Shown here piece after piece: positions 707 to 56,475 of a DNA stretch of 64,000 bases; position 1 is the stretch's first letter, and each line of letters begins with the position of its first letter. The position numbers were made by a program, and so were the translations under genes. This DNA is from Topomyia yanbarensis (Eukaryota; Arthropoda; Insecta; Diptera; Culicidae): NCBI RefSeq assembly GCF_030247195.1, contig NC_080671.1:97513845-97577844 (forward strand), in the 5' to 3' direction. The notes beneath the pieces were generated by a model. That model saw only the letters and a list, made by a program, of their open reading frames with translations. It ran no database searches and was not told where the DNA came from.

Positions 707-804
707 GAAAAAGGGTTTTTAGTGTTACTTGACACCACCATTTTCAAGAAAAAATAGTTATATACACGAGAAAAAAGTTGGGCACGAGAGGGTTAATGGA
801 AATA

Positions 805-864
805 GCGTCGTTCTGGTGGTCAAGTTGGTCTGCCAGATACTGATGAAACGAAGTCAGAACGCAA
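805..864 (+). repeat. Decayed hammerhead-ribozyme motif, copy 1
   Basis: The order gcGTC, a self-complementary stretch (tctgg with ccaga), CTGATGA, a short stem-loop (aac-gaa-gtc), then AGAA and cgcaa follows the hammerhead order seen intact at 39182-39256. The GAAA core reads AGAA and stem I starts with a 2x2 mismatch, so this copy should be inactive. The last block, gaagtcRgaacgcaaat, is shared with the copy at 56176-56252. Confidence 0.5.
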
Positions 865-9205: not shown

Positions 9206-10604
9206 TTTTTGCCTTTCTCAATAGAAAACCGACTTTTTAACGGAGGCCCGGAGGGCCGAGTGACATATACCATTCGATTCAGTTCGTCGAGTTCGGCAAA
9301 TGTCTGTGTGTGTGTATGTATGTGTGTGTGTATGTATGTGTGTGTGTATGTGCGTCTGTGTGTGTGTACGCGAACACAATCTCACTCACTTTTCTCAGAG
9401 ATGGATGAACCGATTTTTACAAACTTAGTCCCAAATGAAAGGTGCAACGTTCCCATAGGCTGCTATTGAATTTCTAATGGATCCGACTTCCGGTTCCGGA
9501 ATTACAGGGTGATGAGTACGATCACGCAGAAAACGTCGATTTTAAGAAATTCTGCAATGAATGTATAATGGTGAAAATTTTTCCAAAATGTGACCACAAC
9601 TGCTTCGATTTGTAGTACTAGGTCATTAACAGCCATTCAAAGTCTCTTTGGTCACATTGGCCACCATCATCGGTTCCGGAAGCCCCGGCGGAAGTATCCA
9701 AATTCAGAGTAACAGTCACATCGGTTTCTCGGAGATGGCTAGACCGATTCGACTAAACTTGACCTCAAATGAAAGGTATTGCGTCCCCGTAAATGGCTAT
9801 TAAATTTTATCCCCAACCGACTTCCGGTTCCGGAGTTACGGGTTGTGGCGTGCGATCACATAGCAAATTGTGATTCAAACCGATACCCCGATGGAAGCAA
9901 AAAAGGTAAAAATTTCGCTAAAATGTCTCTCAAATAACTTAACTTTGCAGTTCTAGGTCACCGACGGCCAAACAAACTTTCGTTGACTACATTGACCACC
10001 ATAGACGGTTCCGGAGGTGCCCGGGAAAAGCGGCCATCTTTCAAAATTTACGAACTCACATCAGTTTCCCGGAAATGGTTGGGCCGATTTTTACAAACTT
10101 AGTCCCAAATGATAGCTATAATATCCCCATAGATGTCTATAAAATTTCGTACTGATCGCTTATATGGGTCCGGAAATATAGACTAAATCGTCCGGTCACA
10201 TATGAAATTCCCATATAAGCCGGAACTCAAATTTTTTTTCAAAGGGGGGACCTCATGAAATTTCAGAAATCGAATTCGTATTTTTGATGCCAAACATCTT
10301 TAAAATGCATGAAACGTCGAGATTTTATGTTATCTCGAAAAATTTTTTTTATAAAAATCGACTTTTTGGGACTTTGCCGATTTCGCACCTTTTTTCAGTT
10401 CAATATTACCGTGGCTGTTTTTTCTTTTTCAAAATTTTAGAACTCGAATAATGATATTTTCCTGTATATAGTTGTCATGTGATGTATAATAATAAAATGT
10501 AATATATGCATTTAAAAGTTTTTAATGAATATAAACAACGCACACATTCTCGTGATTCATGATTGAGAAAGGCACAATTGCACCGCTAGGTGGATTAAAA
10601 TAGG
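9206..10604 (+). mobile_element. CCTTTCTCA-ended repeat with ~320-bp internal units
   Basis: The left end is gcctttctcaatag, and the right end carries attgagaaaggcacaattgcaccgc, so the ends are partly inverted. Inside are at least three degenerate units, each with gagatgg-cgat, aactta-caaatga, cttccggttccgg, ctaggtca and ccaccat-cggttccgg landmarks, spaced about 320 bp. No ORF is conserved. An opposite-orientation relative fills 18491-22361, and ends recur near 63.0 and 63.7 kb. Transposition class is unknown to me. Confidence 0.65.
9302..9372 (+). repeat. (TG)n/(TATG)n microsatellite
   Basis: Runs of tgtgtgtgta and tgtatg units near the left end of the surrounding repeat. The opposite-orientation relative has a matching (CA)n-type run at 21026-21066 and another at 22193-22240, so the microsatellite is part of the element. 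Confidence 0.8.
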
Positions 10605-10818
10605 TTTTTCAGTTCAATATTACCGTGGCTGTTTTTTCTTTTTCAAAATTTTAGAACTCGAATAATGATATTTTCCTGTATATAGTTGTCATGTGATGTA
10701 TAATAATAAAATGTAATATATGCATTTAAAAGTTTTTAATGAATATAAACAACGCACACATTCTCGTGATTCATGATTGAGAAAGGCACAATTGCACCGC
10801 TAGGTGGATTAAAATAGG
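10391..10818 (+). repeat. Perfect 214-bp direct tandem duplication
   Basis: The segment 10391-10604 is repeated immediately at 10605-10818, and I saw no mismatch between them. Each unit starts tttttcagttcaatattacc and ends at the aggtggattaaaatagg terminus of the enclosing repeat. It is either a very recent duplication or an assembly artefact. Confidence 0.85.
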
Positions 10819-10833
10819 TTTTTTTACAGAATA

Positions 10834-33698: not shown

Positions 33699-35347
33699 CG
33701 CACAGTGGGATGGAATCAAAAAAGCCGGACATTGATATTTGCGACGAAACTATTGGCTACGGTACTTTGATGTCTTCAGAAAGTTTTCTTTATTTTTTAA
33801 GTAGTTTAATATAATGTTGAAAAATTTTGACTTTGACGCAGATAAAAAAAAATAACTTTGCAAGTTGTTGCCAAAATTGAAAGTCATGTATGGAAAGTTT
33901 GGAGACGAAATGATTTTATGAAACTTTGTTGAAGTAGCGAAATAGCTATCTGTTAAGCAAAAAAAGTTATTGGGTGAAATTGAAGCACAGGTCGGAATAC
34001 CCCCTTAAAAAGTGTTTTTATTATTGTAACTTTTTATTTGATTTTTTACAGTTTTGCGATGTTCTAGAAAGTTGTAGATGCTTGCAAAACACACCTTTTT
34101 GCGGAATAGACTAACTAGCTATCTCTTCTTTTTTTATTTTTATGCCTGTTTTTTTGTTATTTTTTGTTAGCAACTTTAAGGGGCTATGGTATGTAGAGTA
34201 GCAGGTAGTAGCAGCTAAATTTATTGTTTTGTTGCGCAGAAAGAAATACCCTATTGATATATAGCGGGATCTAATGGGATCCTTTGAGTAATGTGGGTAA
34301 AATAGACTACTGTTTCAATAATTTATTTGTATTATGAAGCATGAAAAATAAACTATTATGCGAAATTAATAAACATTTGAAAAATTATAGTTCATTCCAT
34401 ATATTCCGATAATCGAAGTTATTTTTTTTTTTTAAAATTAACATGCTCATAAGTCATCAGTTTCCTGCCAAATCTTCTTCGTCATTGGATGAACAAGGTA
34501 TTAATATAACCGAGGATTCAAAGCAACGAAATACCTTGTTCATCCAATGACGAAGAAGATGATATGCAAGACACTGATGACTTATGAGCATGTTAATAAC
34601 AAAAAAAATTAACTTTGAATGTCGGAATATATGGAATGAACTATAATATTTCACATGTTTACTAATTTCGCAAAATAGTTGATTTTTCATGCTTCATAAA
34701 CAAATAATTTATTGAAATGCTAGTTTATTTTACCCCACATTATTCCAAGGATCCCAGTAGATCCCCCTATGATTTATATATGTATCAATAGGGTATTTCT
34801 TGATGAATAACAAATAAATAAATTTAGCTGCTACTACCGGCTACTCTATATACCATAGCCCCTTAAAGTTAGCCCAAAAATACAAAAAAAAAACAGGCAT
34901 GCATCCTAAAAACGAGGAGATAGCGAGTTGGTCTATTCCGAAAAATGGTGTGTTTTGAAAGCATCTACAACTTTCTAGAACATCGCAAAACTGTGAAAAA
35001 TCAAATAAAATACAATAAAAACATTTTTAAGGAGGTATTCCGATCTGTGCTTCAATTTCACCCAATAACTTTTTTCGCTTAACAGATTGATATTTCGCTA
35101 CTTCAACAAACTTTCATAAAATCATTTCGTCTCCAAACTTTCCATACATGACTTTCAATTTTGGCAACAACTTGCAAAGTTATTTTTATTATCTGCGTAT
35201 ATACCCCCTTAAGTCAAAAATTTTCAACATTATATAAAACGACTTAAAAAATAAAGAAACCTTTCCAAAGACATCAAAGTGCCATAGCCAATAGTTTCGT
35301 CGCAAATATCAATGTCCGGCTTTTTTTTGATTCCGTCACACTGTGCG
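33699..35347. mobile_element. Large foldback element (1.65 kb palindrome)
   Basis: Nearly the whole segment is one inverted repeat. Left-arm blocks such as gccggacattgatatttgcg, gaaactattggcta, ggagacgaaatgattttatg, gttctagaaagttgtagatg and ttaaggggctatggta all return in reverse complement and reverse order in 34520-35345. The innermost part has perfect 31-bp arms at 34472-34502 and 34530-34560 around a 27-nt loop. The outer ends are cgcacagtg-like. Arms look about 85-90% alike, with small indels. No transposase ORF and no clear target duplication found. Confidence 0.85.
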
Positions 35348-35863: not shown

Positions 35864-36321
35864 TGTCCACCAATCTTCCGACCGTCAGTTATCTGACCAA
35901 AACACACAACTGTAAATATAATTTCATAATTAATCTTCCTTCTACTTACAATATTTCTCGTTGCTTATACTACATATTTACCCCGGTTTTGATGGAAAAT
36001 GTGAATTCCGTGTTGGTCCATAATTTAAATTCACTTCAAATTATTAAAATTCATTATTACGTACTTCACAAATCTGTCAAATCTTCTTTTGACAATTCTT
36101 CTTTTCATCCTACCGTCATAATCCGTCCGAGAGCTCGTGTCAGTCCTGCATTCGACGCACCACGCTCTCCAGCGACCGGGGGGGTACTCGAGTAACTGGT
36201 GCAATCCTTCGTAACACTCGTATTCCCTAGTGTGGTTTCAAACAATGTTCTCTTAAGTGCAGAGAAATAGTTTTTATCTGAATTTTTCTCCACTAAGTAG
36301 AAATATAGCATAGTGCATATT

Positions 36322-37212
36322 AGAGTGGGACACGGTTATATGAGAAAAATTAAATTTTTGCTCCGAGTAACTTTTTAGGCCCGATTTAGCTCCAAGAACA
36401 ACTCTGCAAATTTTAAGCTCGATTGGTGAAACTATATTTTTGCGCCCACTGTTTAAAGTTTACATGGGATTTCACATGGGGAAATCGTCTTTTGCAAAAT
36501 TATTCGTCCAAGAGTCGCCCGTTACCTTCTAAAAATAAATAAATGTCTAATTTTAAATAGAAAATTTGTTAAGGAAACAAAGTGTAGAAGACTGCGAAAC
36601 CATCTGATGCTTGTGGAAAAAGTTATTAAGAAAAAACCGATTGATGCCCTGAAGAACGATGAAAATTTCACTTTGCATAGCATCACTGCTGCTGACAATA
36701 AAATTATATGCAAAATTTTTAACTTTTTCTAATTATGTACAAAAGAGCCTTGATTTATCCATCAAACCTCTTGTAAAGTGGCCAAACAGTACAGATAATT
36801 GATGTAGACATATTTGGAGAACATCTAAACAAAATTTCAAATAATTTTGACAACCAACAGCAGTGGTGCTAGAAAAAATGAATATTTTATCAATAGTCAG
36901 AGCATCAATCGGTTTCAGTCTAATAACTTTTTCTCAAGCGTCAGATTGTTTCGTGGTTTTAGAGACTTTGTTTCTTTGTTAAATTTCCTATAAAAGCCAC
37001 ATAACGATTTATTTTTAGGAAGCAATGGGCGACTACTGAAGGAATTGTTTTGTGAAAGTTCATTTTCCCATACAAAATCCAATGTAAACTTTAAACAGCG
37101 AGCGCAAAAATATAGTTTCAGAGATCAAGCTAAGAATTTGCACAGTTGTTCTAGGACCCAAATGGTACCTAAAAAGTTGCTCGGAGCTGAAATGTATTTT
37201 TTGTCCCACCCT
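36322..37212. mobile_element. Foldback element in the LINE 5' UTR, 10-bp target duplication
   Basis: AGTGCATATT is perfectly duplicated at 36312-36321 and 37213-37222. Ends are AGAGTGGGAC and GTCCCACCCT. Long arms match across tgctccgagtaactttttag, ttgcgc-cactgtttaaagtt, ctaaaaataaat, aaggaaacaaagt and accgattgatgc. Its 891 bp are therefore one imperfect palindrome with an AT-rich centre near 36750-36850. A 10-bp duplication would suit a Mutator-like element, but this is inference. No ORF of note. Confidence 0.85.
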
Positions 37213-37384
37213 AGTGCATATTGCATTGAGCTTTTTTTTCGCTCGAACAGTCAACGAGTGCGGACGCCTCTTCAAGCGCTCCGCAAGTAATTTATTAATT
37301 AGTATTTTTTTACCTACGTAAACAAACATCGCGCGCGTGCCTCGTAAGTTACAGTGCTATTGAATTTCAAGTAATAGTAAAATA

Positions 37385-38929
37385 ATGCAGTGCGGTGTAA
37401 AAACTTGCAACATAAACGACGACCGCTTCCTCTGGAAGTGTGAATTTTGCAGCAGATCGTACCATGCTGCCTGTGTAGGTGTGCAGCGTAATCAGGAAAA
37501 TTTTATCCGGGCATTTATGGTGCCTGTGTGTGCGGACTGCCAGCACATTATTAGGACAGAGGTCGACACACGCAAAATGATCTATCTACAAGATCAGCTG
37601 CTAAAAATGATGAAGTCGCATACGGACACACAACATCGAACCACAGCTGACCTAAAGAGCCACAGTCTTGAATTGTTCGGTAGCATCGAACAATTACTTA
37701 ACGACGTAAAGCAGTCAATGCAAGTCGTCCATAAAAAGAACGAAAACATATGCAGTAAACTAGGTCAGCATTTTCATTCTTGTGACAATTTGTTGCAAAA
37801 TTCGATCGACGCCATCAGCAAATCGACCAAAACAATATCGGACAATATGAATCATAAAATTGACGAACGGCTATCACACCTCGAGAACGAACTGCTTTCC
37901 ACTAAATGTTCTGAGCCGTACCCTCTCGTCAATTCCGACCTATTGGAGGAATTGAAGGAAGAAGTGAAAGCTATTTCCATTGCAATCTCCAACATGACAA
38001 TACCAGAAAATGGCATGAATCAATCAAAATCGCTGGCTGAAGAATTAGCGGAAAAATCACACGCTACAGTAATCCAACAGAAATTAGATCATACGTCTCC
38101 AGGCTGGCGATTTTTGGGCGATAAATGGCAATGGAAGCAGGATTGGACAAAATATGACGCCAAACAACGCATTCGACGGCTTCAGGAGAAAGCTGCTGAT
38201 AAGGCAAGGCGCAACCGAAAACGTCGTAAGCAGTCAAGTCAACGTGACAACGATCGCGCTAACAATCATCATCATAACGACAGTGGTAAGACGTCAGACA
38301 AATTACTACTTGCCACGGCGAAAAAACAATTTTGCGTTCCTCCCACAACCACCGAACATCCGATTGCTGGTCTTGCAATACCAGCAGTAAAAACAAATTT
38401 CATAAACTTTAAAAAAGGTGACACCATCAACCCGTACCGTTCAGCTAACGAAAACATTCAACCCAAACAAATGAAAGTGACTCCTACCAGCGGCGAAAAT
38501 AGTTCAAACACATTGGCAACCACATCTCAACATTCGAACACAGACAGCCAATTTGAACTGGACCCCTTGCACCCTCCAATCGCACGCCTCACGTCACAAT
38601 CAACGAATGGCGACGGTCGCTTTTTAAAGGCCAGACTTCGCGAACCAAAAATAATGAACATTGTACGCCTATACCTGGCATATATGAAGGACCAACACCC
38701 ATCTATTTGCGTGGAAGGAATGACGCCGACTAGCATCAAAATGACGCTCGCATCCGAAGGACTACCGACCACTCCTGACCATCTCCTGCGCATTTTCATC
38801 GAAGTCTATCAGGAATATGGGCTAAACCCAGACGAAGCAGCAGCAGACCTTGTACTATGTTGCGTTTCGGCTTCGCCTCATCAGAAACCGACACTAACAC
38901 ATTGTCGGAATAGATTAGCGCCGGCTTGA
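37385..38929 (+). CDS. LINE ORF1 protein with PHD-like zinc finger (3' end replaced by an insertion)
   Basis: 514 codons from ATG at 37385. The N-terminus carries a C4HC3 pattern: C3, C8, C19, C22, H27, C30, C49, C52, spaced as in a PHD finger. PHD-like ORF1 fingers occur in CR1-group LINEs, whereas classical jockey ORF1 has CCHC knuckles. A helical, probably coiled-coil region spans roughly residues 100-215. A tryptophan-rich patch and a strongly basic stretch (residues ~255-290) follow, and a folded C-terminal part lies at about 415-490. ORF1 proteins bind the element's RNA. The last 24 codons and the stop at 38927 lie in a 411-bp palindromic insertion beginning at 38853. An open frame resumes at 39265-39528, so the present C-terminus is probably not the ancestral one. 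Confidence 0.85.
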   Translation: MQCGVKTCNINDDRFLWKCEFCSRSYHAACVGVQRNQENFIRAFMVPVCADCQHIIRTEVDTRKMIYLQDQLLKMMKSHTDTQHRTTADLKSHSLELFGSIEQLLNDVKQSMQVVHKKNENICSKLGQHFHSCDNLLQNSIDAISKSTKTISDNMNHKIDERLSHLENELLSTKCSEPYPLVNSDLLEELKEEVKAISIAISNMTIPENGMNQSKSLAEELAEKSHATVIQQKLDHTSPGWRFLGDKWQWKQDWTKYDAKQRIRRLQEKAADKARRNRKRRKQSSQRDNDRANNHHHNDSGKTSDKLLLATAKKQFCVPPTTTEHPIAGLAIPAVKTNFINFKKGDTINPYRSANENIQPKQMKVTPTSGENSSNTLATTSQHSNTDSQFELDPLHPPIARLTSQSTNGDGRFLKARLREPKIMNIVRLYLAYMKDQHPSICVEGMTPTSIKMTLASEGLPTTPDHLLRIFIEVYQEYGLNPDEAAADLVLCCVSASPHQKPTLTHCRNRLAPA

Positions 38930-38934
38930 CGCAA
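38860..38934 (-). ncRNA. Hammerhead ribozyme (left arm, minus strand)
   Basis: Inverted copy of the ribozyme at 39182-39256. On the minus strand it keeps CTGATGA, stem II ggc-gaa-gcc, GAAA and the ttgcg/cgcaa stem III with GTC at the cleavage site. It differs from the right-arm copy at one stem II loop base and one stem I loop base, neither in the catalytic core. It is antisense to the last codons of the present ORF1. Confidence 0.8.
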
Positions 38935-39181
38935 ATCCCTTAAAACTAAAACACACTATGTGTTTCAATCAAACGACTGATCAAACGTGATGTCCCGTTC
39001 GAGCAGAAGTTCTGTTTATGCCGATGAGACACAAGTGAAGCCGAAACTTGTCTTGGCTTAGCAGACAAGTTTCGGCTTCACTTGTGTCTCATCGGCATAA
39101 ACAGAACTTCTGCTCGAACGGGACATCACGTTTGATCAGTCGTTTGATTGAAACACATAGTGTGTTTTAGTTTTAAGGGAT

Positions 39182-39256
39182 TTGCGTCAAGCCGGCGCTA
39201 ATCTGTTCCGACAATGTGTTAGTGTCGGTTTCTGATGAGGCAAAGCCGAAACGCAA
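39182..39256 (+). ncRNA. Hammerhead ribozyme, type III, intact core
   Basis: Stem III 5' strand ttgcg (39182-39186) pairs with cgcaa (39252-39256). The cleavage triplet GTC ends at 39188. Stem I aagccggcgct (39189-39199) pairs over 11 positions, four of them G-U, with agtgtcggttt (39221-39231). The core CTGATGA is at 39232-39238. Stem II ggc-aaa-gcc is at 39239-39247 and GAAA at 39248-39251. All conserved core bases and the A15.1-U16.1 pair are present. Hammerheads in animal repeats (Penelope-like elements, retrozymes) self-cleave their transcripts. Activity here is predicted, not shown. Confidence 0.85.
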
Positions 39257-39264
39257 CATAGTAT

Positions 39265-39528
39265 GAAATAAGGATTTGTGCCCTCCTGTACAAAGACTGG
39301 TTTTTACCAACAAATTTTCACCCTAGTGAGAAATTTTGGTTTTACCAAATTTTCCTCCTTAGGGTGAAATATAGCATAGAGCAGACCTTGACTCTTATGG
39401 AAAATTTTTATCAAGCGAAAGAACCAGGCGCCTTCAACAACTCCGCGAAGCTACGCATAAATTTGGAACGTCGAATTTTCGGAAGTAACGACGCCCTCTA
39501 TAGAGGAAGAAAATATAACTGTAAGTAA
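39265..39528 (+). pseudogene. Probable severed 3' end of LINE ORF1
   Basis: Directly after the palindrome an open frame of 87 codons runs to TAA at 39526-39528. It contains ICALLYKDWFLPTNFHPSEK, LMENFYQAKEPGAFNNSAKL and RRIFGSNDALYRGRKYN. If the insertion duplicated two bases (TG), this frame would continue that of ORF1 at 38850. If the duplication is TA, ORF1 would end there instead and this frame would be separate. The length of the open frame favours the first reading (inference). It overlaps the open frame of ORF2 from 39461. Confidence 0.5.
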
Positions 39529-39580
39529 TTTAAATATTCCAAAAACTTCTTCGCATCCACAACAGAATTCGACTGAAATT

Positions 39581-42457
39581 TTGGTCTATTGCCAAAATTT
39601 TAATCGAATGAAAAGCCCAGCCAAAATGAAAGAAATCCAACAAAAACTAATCTCATCTTCTTTTAATATAATTCTTGGAACAGAAAGTAGCTGGGATGAA
39701 AGCGTAAGAAGCGAAGAAATTTTTGGAAATCAATTTAATGTATTTCGGCATGACCGTAATTTGTCTCTTTGTAATAAAAAGTCTGGAGGAGGAGTCATTA
39801 TAGCCATAAACGCAGACTTTTCTTCAGAAGAAATAGAAACCATTAAACATATAGAATTTGAACATATATGGGCAAAAGCAGTAATATCAGGAGAAGTGCA
39901 CATATTCTCCTCTGTGTACTTTCCACCTGAATATGCTCACAAAAAATCATTTGAACTATTTTTTCAAACTGTAGAATCTATCATGTCAAACATGGAACCT
40001 GAAGTAAAACTGCATATTTATGGCGACTTTAATCAACGTAACACCAACTTCATCGTAGACATTGAAAACGAATCTATCTTACTCCCTGTCGTAGGCGAAA
40101 ATGAAACACTTCAATTCTTCTTTGACAAAATATCTGAATTTGGCCTGCACCAAATCAACCATGTAAAAAATAAACAAAATTCATATTTAGACCTCTTATT
40201 CACGAACTGCACTGAAGACTTTTGTGTTAATGCATCTTTAACTCCCTTATGGAAAAATGAAGTATTTCACACAGCAATCGAATATTCAATTTTCATTCAT
40301 CAAAACTCTTCCCCGAACGACTTGGAGTATGAGGAAGTGCCGGAATACTATAAAACTGACTTCGAAGAAGTCAAACGTAGACTATGTAGAATAAATTGGC
40401 AAACTGTATTGAGTATAGAAGGAAATGTCAACGAAGCAGTGACTAAATTCTATTTAATTGTAACGAATTTAATCTCTGGAACAGTACCAGTAAAAAGAAG
40501 AAGAAGAACTCATGGCGGCCAGCAGCCTGTATGGTTCAACCAACATCTGAAAAATTTAAAAAATAGAAAGCAAAAGGCACATAAAATTTACAAGAAAGAA
40601 CATAGCATTACAAATCGGCAAAACTATCTGGATATTTGTTCCCAACTCGACATAGCCATCAACACTGCACATGAAGAATATAATCGTAAAATCGAGACTG
40701 AAATCAAGACCTATCCAAAGAATTTCTTCAATTACGTGAAAACGAAATTGAAAAGTAGCAACTTTCCATCCCAAATGCATTTTGACGGACATGTAGGAAA
40801 TAACAATACTGAAATTTGCAATTTATTTGGAAAATTCTTTCAAGAAGTCTATATTTCATATTCCGAAACAGACCGCGACCGCGACTACTTTTCATTTATA
40901 CCTGAATTTTCAAATGACATTGCCGTCCACGAACTATCTGAACACGAAATTACCACTGCACTAAAAAACTTGGACGCATCAAAAGGACCTGGACCGGACG
41001 AAATAGCACCAATATTTTTAAAAAATCTAGCAGAAGAATTCACTCTACCACTACTACATATTTTCAACATGTCACTGAAAAATGGAACATTCCCAGAAAT
41101 TTGGAAATCATCCTTTTTAGTGCCAATTTTTAAATCAGGCGCTAAATCGGACATCCGAAACCATCGTGGGATTGTCATTATATCATGCATTCCAAAATTA
41201 TTCGAAAAACTAGTAAATGACAAAATATTTCAGCAAATAAAAAATCAAATAACAAGCAAGCAGCATGGCTTTTATAAAGGCCGCTCAACAACATCAAACC
41301 TTTTAGAATTTGTAACATTTACTGTAAATGCAATGGACAATGGCAACCATGTGGAAACACTCTACACTGACTTTAGTAAAGCATTCGACCGTATTGACAT
41401 ACCTTTATTACTCTTCAAACTGCAAAAATATGGCATAGAAAATAAACTATTGAAATGGCTCGAATCATATTTAACGAACCGTCAACAAACAGTTCGCTTT
41501 CAGAATATACTCCCGGAACCAATTTCTGTCACCTCTGGCGTACCCCAGGGTTCCCACTTAGGCCCTCTTCTTTTTATTTTGTACGTTAATGACATTGCCT
41601 TTATACTCAAACATCTTAAAGTGCTTATATATGCAGATGACATGAAACTTTTCATGGAAATAAGAAATGTCAAAGACACTGAAATATTCCAAAACGAAAT
41701 AAATATATTCCACACGTGGTGTAGCAAAAGTCTACTCCAACTTAATGTAAAGAAATGCAACTCAATAACCTTCAGCAGAAAAATTTCAAATGTTCCCATA
41801 GGCATACACTTAGGCAACCAACTTGTAGAAAAATGCAAAATTGTACGAGATTTAGGCGTAATCTTAGACGCCAAGCTCACATTTGTTGAACATTATAATA
41901 CAATAATAAATAAAGCAAATAGTATGCTGGGCTTTATTAAACGTTTCACCTACAATTTTGAAGACCCTTACACAATAAAATCATTATACAACACATATGT
42001 CAGGCCAATTTTGGAATATTGCAGCATAGTATGGAACCCATACACTGTCCTGTACGAAGAACGCATCGAATCAGTCCAAAAACAATTTATTTTGTACGCG
42101 CTTCGTAAACTAAACTGGACGACATTTCCTCTTCCATCGTATAAAGCACGTTGCATGCTCATTAATATACAAACACTCAAAGAACGCCGCGAATTTGCCA
42201 TGCTTTACTTTATCAACGACATTATTTCTCAACGTGTTCAATCCGCATCATTACTTTCGCAAATAAAATTTTATGTACCTATCCGACAACTAAGAACTCG
42301 TAATTTATTCGAAGAACAATCTTTTAGGACAAACTATGCTAAAAATAGCCCCATCAATAGAATGATGCGTCATTATAATGAAAATTGTGTAATAATTGAC
42401 CTTTCCATGTCTAGAAAACAAATCAAATCTGAACTAAACCGTAGAAATAATGTATAG
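39581..42457 (+). CDS. LINE ORF2: APE-type endonuclease and reverse transcriptase
   Basis: 958 uninterrupted codons counted from 39581, where the codon is TTG. The frame is open from 39461 and the first ATG is at 39608. The endonuclease includes N6 in YCQNFNRMKS, E35 in GTESSW, GDFN at 148-151, DLLFTN and a final FHTAI motif. The RT includes KGPGPDEIAP, NHRGIVIISC, TDFSKAFDRID, SGVPQGSHLGPLLFILYVND and catalytic YADD at 684-687 (41630-41641), then LGVILDAKLTF. The C-terminal part has RPILEYCSIVWNPY and RIESVQKQF. Because the presumed catalytic N6 precedes the first ATG, translation must start upstream or by frameshift or reinitiation from ORF1. It makes the first-strand nick and cDNA during target-primed reverse transcription. 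All key residues look intact. Clade: jockey/CR1 group. Confidence 0.93.
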   Translation: MVYCQNFNRMKSPAKMKEIQQKLISSSFNIILGTESSWDESVRSEEIFGNQFNVFRHDRNLSLCNKKSGGGVIIAINADFSSEEIETIKHIEFEHIWAKAVISGEVHIFSSVYFPPEYAHKKSFELFFQTVESIMSNMEPEVKLHIYGDFNQRNTNFIVDIENESILLPVVGENETLQFFFDKISEFGLHQINHVKNKQNSYLDLLFTNCTEDFCVNASLTPLWKNEVFHTAIEYSIFIHQNSSPNDLEYEEVPEYYKTDFEEVKRRLCRINWQTVLSIEGNVNEAVTKFYLIVTNLISGTVPVKRRRRTHGGQQPVWFNQHLKNLKNRKQKAHKIYKKEHSITNRQNYLDICSQLDIAINTAHEEYNRKIETEIKTYPKNFFNYVKTKLKSSNFPSQMHFDGHVGNNNTEICNLFGKFFQEVYISYSETDRDRDYFSFIPEFSNDIAVHELSEHEITTALKNLDASKGPGPDEIAPIFLKNLAEEFTLPLLHIFNMSLKNGTFPEIWKSSFLVPIFKSGAKSDIRNHRGIVIISCIPKLFEKLVNDKIFQQIKNQITSKQHGFYKGRSTTSNLLEFVTFTVNAMDNGNHVETLYTDFSKAFDRIDIPLLLFKLQKYGIENKLLKWLESYLTNRQQTVRFQNILPEPISVTSGVPQGSHLGPLLFILYVNDIAFILKHLKVLIYADDMKLFMEIRNVKDTEIFQNEINIFHTWCSKSLLQLNVKKCNSITFSRKISNVPIGIHLGNQLVEKCKIVRDLGVILDAKLTFVEHYNTIINKANSMLGFIKRFTYNFEDPYTIKSLYNTYVRPILEYCSIVWNPYTVLYEERIESVQKQFILYALRKLNWTTFPLPSYKARCMLINIQTLKERREFAMLYFINDIISQRVQSASLLSQIKFYVPIRQLRTRNLFEEQSFRTNYAKNSPINRMMRHYNENCVIIDLSMSRKQIKSELNRRNNV

Positions 42458-42510
42458 TATATAAGTAGATATTGTAAATCCATTCTATGTAGTCTACATA
42501 TGCTTGACGA

Positions 42511-42539
42511 AATAAATAAATAAATAAATAAATAAATAA
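42511..42539 (+). repeat. (AAATA)n LINE 3' tail
   Basis: Seven aaata/aata units follow a 53-bp 3' UTR after the ORF2 stop and mark the LINE's 3' end. Juan- and CR1-like LINEs end in such short repeats. Confidence 0.8.
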
Positions 42540-42651
42540 GCCAAACCAAGCATAGATTTCATTAATTCTCATCAGCTTAATCAGAACTGATTTTCTTGTG
42601 GGACTAGGGGTTTGCTCAGAAACACAAATTATGTCCCCGTTTTTTGGAGCT

Positions 42652-42713
42652 AGTGTCAATCCGGCGCTAGCTTAGTACTATCACTAAGTTAGTGTCGGTT
42701 TCTGATGAGACGA
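42652..42713 (+). repeat. Truncated hammerhead-ribozyme copy
   Basis: GTC (42655-42657) is followed by aatccggcgctagc, which pairs with ttagtgtcggttt, then CTGATGA at 42702-42708 and gacga. The sequence then departs from the family, so the GAAA core and stem III are missing. It lies 110 bp past the LINE tail. Confidence 0.6.
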
Positions 42714-42719
42714 ATATTC

Positions 42720-44406
42720 CATACTATTTTACAATTGATTGGGTCATTTTATTTCCAATGCAGTATTAAAGGTTTGCGATTGTCAAAACCCATTCAAGAT
42801 TGCCCACAGCCAAGTTCGAAACGATTTCGCGCTGACAAACAATAAATTTCTCACATCACCCAGAAAAGTCGAACAGCGTTCGTACAATTATCAGTTGATA
42901 AATCTCCGGCGCACCGTTTCCAGAGATTTGCATTTTTCCAGTGATCATGCTTCAAGCTCCCCGAAACAATGCCGAATCGAATCAACTCGACTGCCGCAGT
43001 CCTCCAATCATTACACGGGCAGGGATACAATGAGCAGGGGATTGCGTGGCGGTGGTGGTTTTTGAACCAAGGAACTGGCGGAAATGTGTTGTGTTTGGCG
43101 GTTCGGGCACAACGAAACACTTGGCGAACATTTCCCATCGATTTTGATTAAAATCTAAACAAATGTGTGTACATAAAACACGACCGATGGCAATATTTTA
43201 TGCCGTTGCGGTGCGATATCGTACACCGCATCGTTGTTGTTGTTGTTGGTTGTTGTCTTGGGACGACGAACGTGAACGGCTTCGACGGTCTTAAACATGT
43301 GAATAATCGAATCCGCGCGCCGTGCAGTGACTCCGCAGTGATGATGACGACAGCTTGGAAATCGGGTCCCCCGCCCGAAGGGGTCATCCGCTGAGGAAGT
43401 CCGAGAGCTGCTTCTATCTTGTTTGAAATCATAGAAATGGTTTAGCTCTGCCGCGCGCGCCTCCATCTGTCGTCGGGTTGCGAACATGGCTTCTATTGTT
43501 GGTCCGTGAAGATTTGGAACGTCGTTGATTGCCATCGCCTAGAGATGACCGGCTCGCATCAGCAACGGAAAGCTTCGTCGATGAAGACTTCTTCTGTAAA
43601 CATTGTTTTGTTTCTTTTCCCTTTGCTGTGAATGAAGATTTATCACCAGAAATCGATCAAAGCGTCACATGTTGGGTCATTTTTTATTCCATCGGGGCGA
43701 TGTTTTTGGTTTTCGGTTTTTGGTCATGTGTCGATAGAGCTTGTTAACTTTCGCATGTGGGAGGTGAACGAATTGAATAGTCAAACGGATTGTGGTGATT
43801 TATGGTATTTGTGGAATGGGATTTGCAGCGAGAGATTGAATTAATTTTTAGTTGCATAATACTTTTATTGAAATGTTTTGAAAAAAAAATTGCATATTTT
43901 ATTTGCGAAACATGCATTTTCAGTTTGCTCAGAGGCGGAATGCTTGCGAGTGTTTTAATGCGATGGAGCTTGGTAACCAACTAATTTTTCAAAGTTGATA
44001 CGCATAACAGTGATTATAATATGAGAATTAACAGCCAAACCGTGTGTCGGAAATCCAAAATTATTAAGTTTCCCGTCCTTGATTCCTTAACCTTCCTTAG
44101 GTACTAACTGTTTGTTGCGAATTAGTTGTTGGCCGGTCATTTTAACCCAGCGTTAAAACCCAGTTTTTAGAGGTATTTTTCAACTAAACCTATATATTTC
44201 GGTGCCGAATCGGATCACGTTCGACCTCCATAGATCTATGCAAATCCGTTTTCATAAATCACTTATTCATCGATTCCCAAGCAACAATCCAAATGCTAAA
44301 TTGTATAATATAAGTTTTATATTAGTTTTATGAAAGCATGGCTGCATAAATCCAGTTTTATGACTGCTTTTGACAAGAGCCTCTAGTTTTATGTGATTTG
44401 CGAATA
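42720..44406. other. GC-richer unique island with (TTG)n run
   Basis: 42950-43560 is GC-richer and shows no transposon relation. A (TTG)n run is at 43232-43256. On the minus strand an ATG at 43535 opens a 126-codon frame beginning MAINDVPNLHGPTIEAMFAT, with codon use that looks somewhat protein-like and an asparagine run from the microsatellite. I do not recognise it and see no clear splice sites, so I leave it as a possible exon only. 43560-44406 is AT-rich and featureless. Confidence 0.3.
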
Positions 44407-55170: not shown

Positions 55171-56175
55171 ATGATGTTCAATGATTTTCCTGAAATACTG
55201 ATTCCAATATGGAGGCTAGGACGACCTTGGATGAGCTCCATTTGTATAAATTTTAAGGAAATCTGCTTTTCGTAGCAAAATTGATTTACCTAAATCAGTC
55301 AAAGGCAAAAAATGGCACTTTAAAAGTGAATTTCGGCCGAATAGACGTCTACTGACTGACTGCCATGTTATATGTCCGGCAAAATTATATCTAGATCTTA
55401 ACGTTTTTTCTCAGTATAGAAATAAATCAGAAGTCACACAAGGAAGTAATATGAGTACATTACTGTACACGTTGTTCTTCAAGGAAGCAGAATTTATGTG
55501 TGGTGTTGGGCCAGGAAAATTGACCCATGATATCAAATAGAATTTCTATTAGTACAGTCAGTGGAAGTAAATTCAAAATTAATTTAGTTGTTGAACTTAC
55601 TTGATAATAACAAACTAATTCTTCATTTTATGCTTGAAATAAACAAACTAATAAGCAAAATGAGAACAAACTTTGATGTTTTATTCGGCAATCACAACGT
55701 GAAATCAAATTAACATTTGAATGAGAAGCAAATATCAAAATGTTACTTAGTTTTGCTGTAATTTTGATGTTTGACTTCGCACGAGAAATAACACGATTGC
55801 GTATTGACACTACTGAAAATGCTTTTTGGATTTGTATCGGTAACAGATCTGCTATAATAAAACCCTTTAGATTGACCGATAGGAACAATACAAAAAGAAT
55901 AACCACGAACTGCTTGCAGTAAAAAGAGGATCAATGGCGAAATGGACTTTCTGCACGTTAGTAGAGAAACAAAATAGTGATTGCATTCCATGATGGTGTG
56001 ATTTGTCCAACTATTCGCCAAACTCTAAATACGAAACATATTTAAAAAAAATGAGAGTCCAAAATTCGACACTGCCAAGAAGGTGTGCCCCCCATTGTCA
56101 ACCGGCTGGAGCCGTCTATGGCATTATTTCTCGACTAGGGAGAAAAATGTTTAAAACCACATTAGGAAATAGTGT
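55171..56175. other. No recognisable gene
   Basis: AT-rich. ORFs of 60-92 codons on both strands at 55628-56200 overlap each other and resemble nothing I know. Confidence 0.4.
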
Positions 56176-56252
56176 TGTCGTCAATTTGGCGCTGGTTTAG
56201 TGCAGTCACTAAGTTCCTGTCGGATTTAGATGAGATGAAGTCGGAACGCAAA
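56176..56252 (+). repeat. Decayed hammerhead-ribozyme copy
   Basis: The same order as the intact copy: gtcGTC, aatttggcgctggtttagtg, cctgtcggattt, then TAGATGA for CTGATGA, gatgaagtc, GGAA for GAAA, and cgcaaat. Changes at core positions should abolish cleavage. The stem II sequence gaagtcggaacgcaaat matches the copy near 850. Confidence 0.6.
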
Positions 56253-56475
56253 TTCTATAACTAATAGTTCTAGGTTTTTAGCCCTTCATGCGCATATGTG
56301 GTTTTTAATCCCTTTTACGGCCCATGTTGTTTCGGAACAACGACGTTTTCAAACAGCTATAACTTTTGGATTACGTAAGATTCGCTCACAAAAACAAGCA
56401 AGGTGAAAAAATGTGATAATTACCTTTGAAAGTATTAGCTCAAGAACTGAAGTTATTGCAATCAGAGCCGTCTTA

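Follow-up and report, generated by a model that had tools for sequence, protein, structure and literature searches.

The 527-bp insertion at 38853..39379 of the window (the whole stretch of 64,000 nt analysed here, from the sabethine mosquito Topomyia yanbarensis) is best read as a copy of an animal retrozyme, that is, of a non-autonomous and non-coding retroelement whose RNA would carry a hammerhead ribozyme and would probably be circular. The unit of this element, its tandem arrays, the conserved hammerhead fold, the target duplications, the two fixed end sites with opposite roles and the variable head-to-head junctions are all established from the sequences of the copies.

The insertion in a LINE and its hammerhead motif

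In the plus strand of the window, the part of the LINE ORF1 that precedes the insertion occupies 37385..38852, the C-terminal part past the insertion (ending ..GTSNFRK*) occupies 39391..39488, and ORF2 with its reverse transcriptase domain, which is still open over 958 amino acids, follows at 39581..42457. The search for relatives of ORF1 gave 24 matches, 10 of which were aligned with the ORF1 of the window, 9 of these reaching the end. The C-terminus common to the relatives resumes in the window after 39390; thus the insert comprises 38853-39379 and has an 11-bp target-site duplication, AGCAGACCTTG, on either side (38842..38852 and 39380..39390). When the flanks are joined, a 521-aa ORF1 ending like its relatives is restored, which bears out the sequence-only reading that the insertion lies within the coding region of a LINE. 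The LINE served only as the landing site, and the hammerhead does not have its home in the palindrome either. The LINE as a whole (37385-42540) has a cysteine-rich ORF1 start, an ORF2 with reverse transcriptase and an (AAAT)n tail. Its named relatives come from Culex (ORF2) and from Uranotaenia and Topomyia (ORF1), and Brugia timori entries among the ORF2 matches may be mosquito contamination; a scan of viral contigs with ORF2 gave 7 pattern matches and no relatives.

The insert had been described from its letters as a mobile palindrome. It is both a palindrome and a mobile insertion, but the mobile unit is a unit of 343 bp, and the palindrome marks where two arms of it meet head to head. With the unit numbered from the first base past the GTC cleavage triplet (u1 = 39189), the left arm (38853..39053, minus strand) is a part-unit that runs from u75, its outer end of type H, back to about u207, and a 9-nt spacer at the inversion junction (39054..39062) separates it from the plus-oriented arm (39063..39379), a nearly whole 343-nt unit that runs from about u218 round to u191, its outer end of type T. 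The stretches 38853-39053 and 39063-39263 (201 nt, 9 nt apart) are 99% complementary, and the palindromic look arises because both arms here cover the same part of the unit. The part of the unit between the end sites H and T lies at 39257..39379 of the plus strand and has at its end a hairpin and then AAATATAGCATAG. A TA-flanked MITE was our first idea for the insert and was dropped on finding the 11-bp duplication. The idea that the hammerhead belongs to the 3' end of the LINE was also given up, the related piece at 42541 being, like that at 36235-37232, part of an older copy split by the LINE.

This older copy, a member of the family here called B, lies on the plus strand in three parts (36235..36323, 37214..37232 and 42541..42726), split by a foldback element and the LINE, and the third part contains a hammerhead region damaged on its 3' side. 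The stretches flanking the LINE, once joined, align across both joints with each of the 12 family-B loci retained (the comparison was set to retain no more than 12 of 39), and this alignment indicates that the LINE itself is inserted into an older copy of the same retrozyme superfamily. A profile of both arms and the related stretch at 42541 was searched against the window and matched at 56174-56254 (E 2.9e-10) and, marginally, at 796-865 (E 0.16). The former is the decayed hammerhead of a further copy (56172..56251, plus strand), with the core TAGATGA..GGAA and the stems largely kept; the latter is a decayed and the most diverged hammerhead-like copy (799..864, plus strand). The covariance model R1, whose alignment includes the 56 kb copy and excludes the 799-864 and 42647 copies, scored these three at 74.7, 33 and 61.6 bits, respectively. 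Stem II reads GGC/GCC in the window arms versus GAT/GTC in the 56 kb copy, where the core is broken. Three other repeats were observed in the window. The foldback element (36324-37213), inside the older copy and directly upstream of the LINE, has arms about 76% alike and, by eye, an apparent 11-bp duplication, TAGTGCATATT; a further large inverted repeat of about 1.65 kb in total, with arms 86% alike, lies at 33699-35347; and 10391-10823 holds two identical 219-bp stretches 214 bp apart, a short tandem duplication.

The hammerhead motif under study was located by motif scan in the right arm (39182..39256, plus strand), and the left arm contains the same sequence bar 2 bases (38860..38934, minus strand), the two facing outward in the palindrome. 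Every hammerhead part that had been claimed from the letters was found in its place. Stem III is formed by TTGCG (39182-39186) and CGCAA (39252-39256), the GTC triplet lies at 39186..39188 with the predicted cut after 39188, the catalytic core consists of CTGATGA (39232-39238) and GAAA (39248-39251), and stem II pairs GGC (39239-39241) with GCC (39245-39247). The 5 bp given for stem III and the 3 bp given for stem II are correct, but stem I, given as 11 positions, is made of 14 consecutive standard pairs, G-U included, between 39189-39202 and 39218-39231. The assignment to type III holds, the helices being arranged around CUGAUGA, GAAA and the NUH triplet and the motif being open at helix III. 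A descriptor requiring an NUH triplet, a stem I of at least 5 pairs, CTGANGA, a stem II of at least 3, GAAA and a stem III of at least 4 had exactly 2 matches in the 64 kb, both strands taken together, namely the two arm hammerheads, and none in 300 first-order Markov windows. No loop-loop contact was identified for this hammerhead with its 3-bp, triloop stem II, and isolated 86-nt pieces, when folded, had a minimum-energy fold other than the hammerhead.

The search against Rfam, also proposed with the sequence-only reading, gave nothing at the gathering threshold for the window motif. At loose settings, a scan of 701 bp with RF00008 gave 19.4 and 18.7 bits (E 0.26 and 0.4), where 48.5 is the threshold, and these matches omit the GTC and the 5' strand of the long helix I. 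The score is likely to be below the threshold because the match, which begins at 39219, past the GTC, skips the long stem I. By the Rfam test alone the motif would be rejected; we judge that the comparative evidence outweighs the Rfam score. The hammerhead motif itself is real. The matches to microRNA families of Rfam in the window are taken to be the palindrome itself. Searches of viral contigs with exact and gapped patterns of the motif found 0, 0, 2 and 0 stretches, and the 2 stretches have an 18-letter word in common with the motif, the remaining motif being absent.

The 343-bp unit and the conservation of its fold

The T. yanbarensis assembly (1.168 Gb) was searched with three queries. 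The arm query gave 46 matches (the best 40 of 94 candidates were scored), from which 39 loci were taken, together with 9 longer stretches of these loci; the query 42541-42730 gave 4,274 first-look candidates, the best 40 of which were scored, and 42 matches, from which 39 loci outside the window were taken; and the tail query gave 269 candidates, the best 40 of which were scored and 6 loci taken. In L011 the units follow each other head to tail, one per 343 bp. The number of units in an arm ranges from about 0.1 (L022) to about 7 (L050), L098 having about 5 in each direction, and the genome also holds part-units besides the head-to-tail arrays. The unit has 42% GC and is non-coding (longest ORF 28 aa), and no LTR structure was seen in the parsed loci. 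Its fold is far stronger than that of shuffled sequences (z -5.5). The 25-letter core-plus-stem pattern CTGATGAGRCRAAGYCGAAACGCAA has 4,734 exact matches genome-wide and the reversed pattern has 0; among these thousands of hammerhead cores in the mosquito genome, many copies are nearly identical.

When one family-A unit is folded as a circle, its core (u44-64) is predicted to be paired with u224-250 at a probability of 0.80-0.96, and a similar mask of the core was found in two of three family-B units. In L089 the core is masked as in family A, mostly above 0.9; in L079 CTGATGAG is masked (0.96-0.98) and the GAAA side is unmasked; and in L077 the mask is weak and shifted in register (0.36-0.51). 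Viroid-like circles are known to hide their ribozymes by such pairing. In some family-B units (window 42541-42600, L089) the masking stretch itself reads CTGATGAG..GAAA on the minus strand, because it is complementary to the core.

The GTC triplet and CTGATGA..GAAA are intact in 60 of 77 full-length regions. This set counts the window arms twice and includes duplicated loci, 4 rows of diverged families and a few copies that begin at u1 and hence have no GTC. In the 42 diverged rows of alignment A7, which are family B and the 56 kb copy, the expected base is the majority base at every core position, the unpaired positions included. Stem I has 14 pairs in family A and up to 19 in family B; helix III is weak in family B, where it is 72.7% paired and one of the six pairs is open in 40 of 44 rows. 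Stem II covaries between families, reading GGC/GCC, GAC/GTC or, in L088 and L095, GAG/CTC. In a 7-row cross-family alignment, 89.3% of the cells are paired versus 30-42% when the alignment is slid, and 3 of 500 shuffles reach 89.3%. The first 100 core matches along contig C1 have GGC/GCC in 45 cases, GAC/GTC in 53 and mixed letters in 2; the 98 matching stem II pairs represent mainly two families and not 98 events. In the 44-row alignment, pairs in which both bases changed are not in excess (5 versus a shuffled mean of 4.9), so single copies resemble neutral decay. Across the families, the fold is preserved by compensatory changes in the helices. The hammerhead would cleave after GTC to yield 343-nt monomers.

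Insertion ends and the route of insertion

We tabulated 46 family-A loci and found a target duplication in 28 of them and none in the other 18. The loci had been chosen by similarity to part of the unit, so that certain shapes could be favoured; L014 duplicates L052 in part, L044 duplicates L045 and L048 duplicates L057, and some sequences may be truncated where the fetched stretch stops. From the 24 outermost letters on each side, we distinguished two classes of ends, H (u68-82), just 3' of the hammerhead, and T (u185-193), about 115 nt further along the unit. One H end and one T end, both outward, were found in 26 of the 28 insertions with a target duplication, one T end among them (L045) being a weak call that rests on a short AT-rich stretch, and neither H/H nor T/T occurs among the 28. 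Under independent drawing of ends, 26 mixed insertions out of 26 have a chance of 1.5e-8. The two exceptions are L016, with T and u52, and L036, a single plus arm ending at H. A count independent of the similarity-based choice of loci was made on the first 100 core matches along C1: of 16 neighbour pairs less than 2 kb apart, 13 are minus-then-plus, 0 plus-then-minus and 3 same-strand at 342-344 bp. Three family-B loci (L073, L086 and L087) have the same H and T pair of ends.

The target duplications of the 28 loci are 8-14 bp long, and 17 of the 26 insertions with H and T ends have 11 or 12 bp. The 26 target sites, oriented alike, show a weak, roughly two-fold symmetric preference with A.C before and GTT after the duplication: A is present at -3 in 17, T at +2 in 16 and T at +3 in 17 (binomial 3e-4 to 1.3e-3, without correction for the columns inspected); the way in which the duplication is delimited partly forces the C at -1 and the G at +1. 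Both ends read CATAG near the tip in many family-A copies, and poly-A was absent from the insertion ends inspected.

The arms join head to head at variable points, and their inner ends usually differ. Among 73 inner ends listed by hand from the 46-locus table, 6 breakpoints fall on the base of stem I (u41-43), a clustering that is equalled, at whatever position, in 13 of 1000 random sets, and 4 lie at u342-u3, the cut site, versus 1.06 expected (P 0.022), a weak enrichment; a cluster at about u204-223 is non-significant, being reached in 70 of 1000 random sets. The breakpoints at u41-43 and u342-u3 are suggestive of a reverse transcriptase that stops at the helix and at the cut end. Two breakpoints at exactly u1 lie in short A-runs and u41-43 lies in a T-run; such runs could alternatively have guided the joining.

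In the mosquito copies, two outward ends of the RNA-3' type, together with the target duplication and the head-to-head join, fit priming from both target strands, and several units per arm point to a circular or multimeric template. The two putative reverse transcription start sites and the priming from both strands are read from the insertion ends. We consider it quite probable that a retrozyme cycle with double priming from both target strands explains the insert. Head-to-tail units would be transcribed and cut by the hammerhead after each GTC into monomers, which a ligase would close into circles, the core being hidden in a long helix of the predicted fold. An endonuclease-reverse transcriptase, most likely Penelope-like, would then cut the target strands about 11-12 bp apart, and the 3' end of each target strand would prime cDNA synthesis from the RNA, at site H (u68-82) for one strand and at site T (u185-193) for the other. 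Each cDNA would run inward, sometimes for several laps of the circle, and the two cDNA ends would be joined at a variable point to give the head-to-head arms. Cleavage, circularisation, the RNA template and the enzyme are the parts of this cycle that we infer; the Penelope-like enzyme as its driver is a reasoned guess, and the double priming rests on the copies themselves. A more specific form, to which we give an even chance, is a concerted reaction in which a dimeric Penelope-type enzyme would cut a roughly two-fold symmetric site with a stagger of 11-12 bp and carry out target-primed reverse transcription from both strands, with a single folded and circular hammerhead RNA as template, a different start site (H or T) for each strand, and a type III viroid-like ribozyme that has a masked inactive form.

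A search of the T. yanbarensis genome for GIY-YIG gave 5 matches above the cut-off, with reverse transcriptase-like reading frames around them. Of the three proteins scanned, that of L108 has both domains in a single frame, and those of L104 and L105 have one domain each; L106 is partly inverted. Compared with L104-L108, the retrozyme unit matches in L106 only, and R1 matches L106 and one end of L110 (63.7 bits). We read these as retrozyme copies lying close by, which is unsurprising given how densely such copies lie in the window. In the loci examined, the Penelope-like repeats and the retrozyme showed no homology to each other, and the assignment of the enzyme is therefore an analogy. In the Penelope-like sequence of L109/L105 a 113-bp direct repeat (97%) flanks the coding part, and positions 1889-1951 of L109 gave a weak hammerhead-like match to R1 (13.3 bits, E 0.021); Rfam had zero matches on L105, L108, L109 and L110.

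Other explanations share part of this evidence. The two fixed ends, the narrow length range of the target duplications and the CATAG near both tips in many family-A copies would be expected of a foldback DNA transposon (MITE) whose transposase recognises H and T; however, only a few bases of H recur in inverted form in T, the interior varies by copy (arms of about 0.1 to 7 units, differing junctions) in a way that does not fit a transposon with terminal inverted repeats, and the spacerless head-to-tail units of 343 bp point to a circular or multimeric template, so that we regard a MITE as very unlikely. It is also quite unlikely, in our opinion, that satellite-like transcripts were retroposed by a LINE with frequent twin priming, without any special enzyme or circle. 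Twin priming is known to yield head-to-head inversions with target duplications, and the LINE of the window keeps an ORF2 open over 958 aa with its reverse transcriptase domain, but 26 of 28 insertions are double-ended and always combine H with T, both priming sites are fixed in the unit, and the insertion ends inspected have no poly-A.

The near-perfect palindrome and its short spacer could have arisen by self-priming, in which a single cDNA folds back and copies itself, as proposed for rotifer Penelope elements in the accessible part of PMC3846280. Under self-priming, the part common to both arms should stop at one unit position and the inner ends should meet, yet the outer ends differ (H versus T) in 26 of 28 insertions and the inner ends usually differ; this origin is already disfavoured and we hold it to be extremely unlikely. 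An unlikely alternative of another kind concerns the ribozyme, whose fold may have been kept as a non-catalytic binding or start site of the reverse transcriptase. One putative start of reverse transcription indeed lies directly 3' of the hammerhead, and ribozyme mutants of the Anolis Penelope-like element still insert (PMC11167929, accessible part); but all core bases, the unpaired ones too, are the majority in the 42 diverged rows, and GTC with CTGATGA..GAAA is kept in 60 of 77 regions.

Comparison with known hammerhead elements

The statements on other systems given here refer to those parts of the cited papers that were accessible. The metazoan non-LTR retrozymes (Cervera and de la Pena 2020, PMC7229834) are like the mosquito element in being non-coding head-to-tail repeats of 150-450 bp with one hammerhead each, in their low GC (<50%), target duplications >4 bp and absence of LTRs, and in a predicted highly paired circle. 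Their hammerheads are described as type I (PMC7229834, PMC7761336). That of the mosquito element is of type III; its helix I ranges from 14 pairs in family A to 19 in family B, and its helix II is 3 bp long. The mosquito insertions, unlike theirs, are double-ended and head-to-head; the word 'inverted' is absent from the main text of PMC7229834. The type III hammerhead is of a sort mostly met in plants. The plant LTR retrozymes share it with the mosquito element, as they do the circular RNA intermediate, the mosquito circle being a prediction, but have LTRs, a primer-binding site and a polypurine tract, ribozymes spaced by about 700 bp, and 4-bp duplications (PMC7229834, PMC7761336), whereas the mosquito element has a 343-bp unit and 8-14-bp duplications, and LTRs were not seen in it.

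Penelope-like elements resemble the mosquito element in their tandem or inverted copies, their 8-10-bp duplications and the hammerhead in the template; their two reverse transcription starts, which define an optional tail, and their both-strand priming may be a further likeness (PMC11167929, PMC3846280). They differ in encoding a reverse transcriptase and a GIY-YIG endonuclease, the mosquito unit being non-coding, and in having minimal type I hammerheads (PMC7761336) instead of type III. The purified Anolis Penelope-like protein cuts and extends both strands and has two internal template starts; the sequence between the two start sites is the tail of the genomic copies, and the locus has a hammerhead (PMC11167929). 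In vitro, the start sites used by this enzyme did not differ between strands and ribozyme cleavage was not needed (PMC11167929); thus a rule of one site per strand is unsupported by the Anolis work as far as the accessible text goes. In rotifers, Penelope copies carry inverted pseudo-LTRs and a one-sided tail and come with 8-10-bp duplications (PMC3846280). The retrozyme unit would work like a Penelope-like element without being a member of that group.

Type III hammerheads with an unusually long helix I, like the mosquito motif, are described from termite and dipteran genomes and from toad and termite HDV-like RNAs (PMC7936874). In those of toad and termite, unlike in that of the mosquito, helix I is interrupted by an internal loop, helix II has 6 bp and a loop-loop pseudoknot is present; the motifs of Diptera are described as similar in structure to these, and the termite genomic ones are isolated motifs for which the accessible text of PMC7936874 describes no mobile element. 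Unpublished work on insect or dipteran type III hammerheads is cited in PMC7936874 and PMC7761336. The hammerheads of Aedes aegypti (Perreault et al. 2011, PMC3088659) likewise come from a mosquito and from interspersed repeats, but are drawn with a loop III, which makes the topology a different one; dimers were suspected to be necessary for them, and the insertion structure is not given in the accessible part. Our literature search, with few subscription papers within reach, found no paper joining retrozyme and mosquito, and in the accessible retrozyme literature searched 'twin priming' is never mentioned.

As the mosquito copies show, a hammerhead family can be abundant and yet, with a long helix I, escape the Rfam models. 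These copies constitute a readable record of insertion, with two fixed ends read as cDNA starts, one per target strand, and arms that may span several laps, and they would link hammerhead circles to the two-strand priming seen in vitro with a Penelope-like enzyme. If the concerted reading is true, a new copy would as a rule be a head-to-head pair of rolling-circle cDNAs, and the element would be an animal retrozyme with a type III ribozyme and a defined mechanism of integration.
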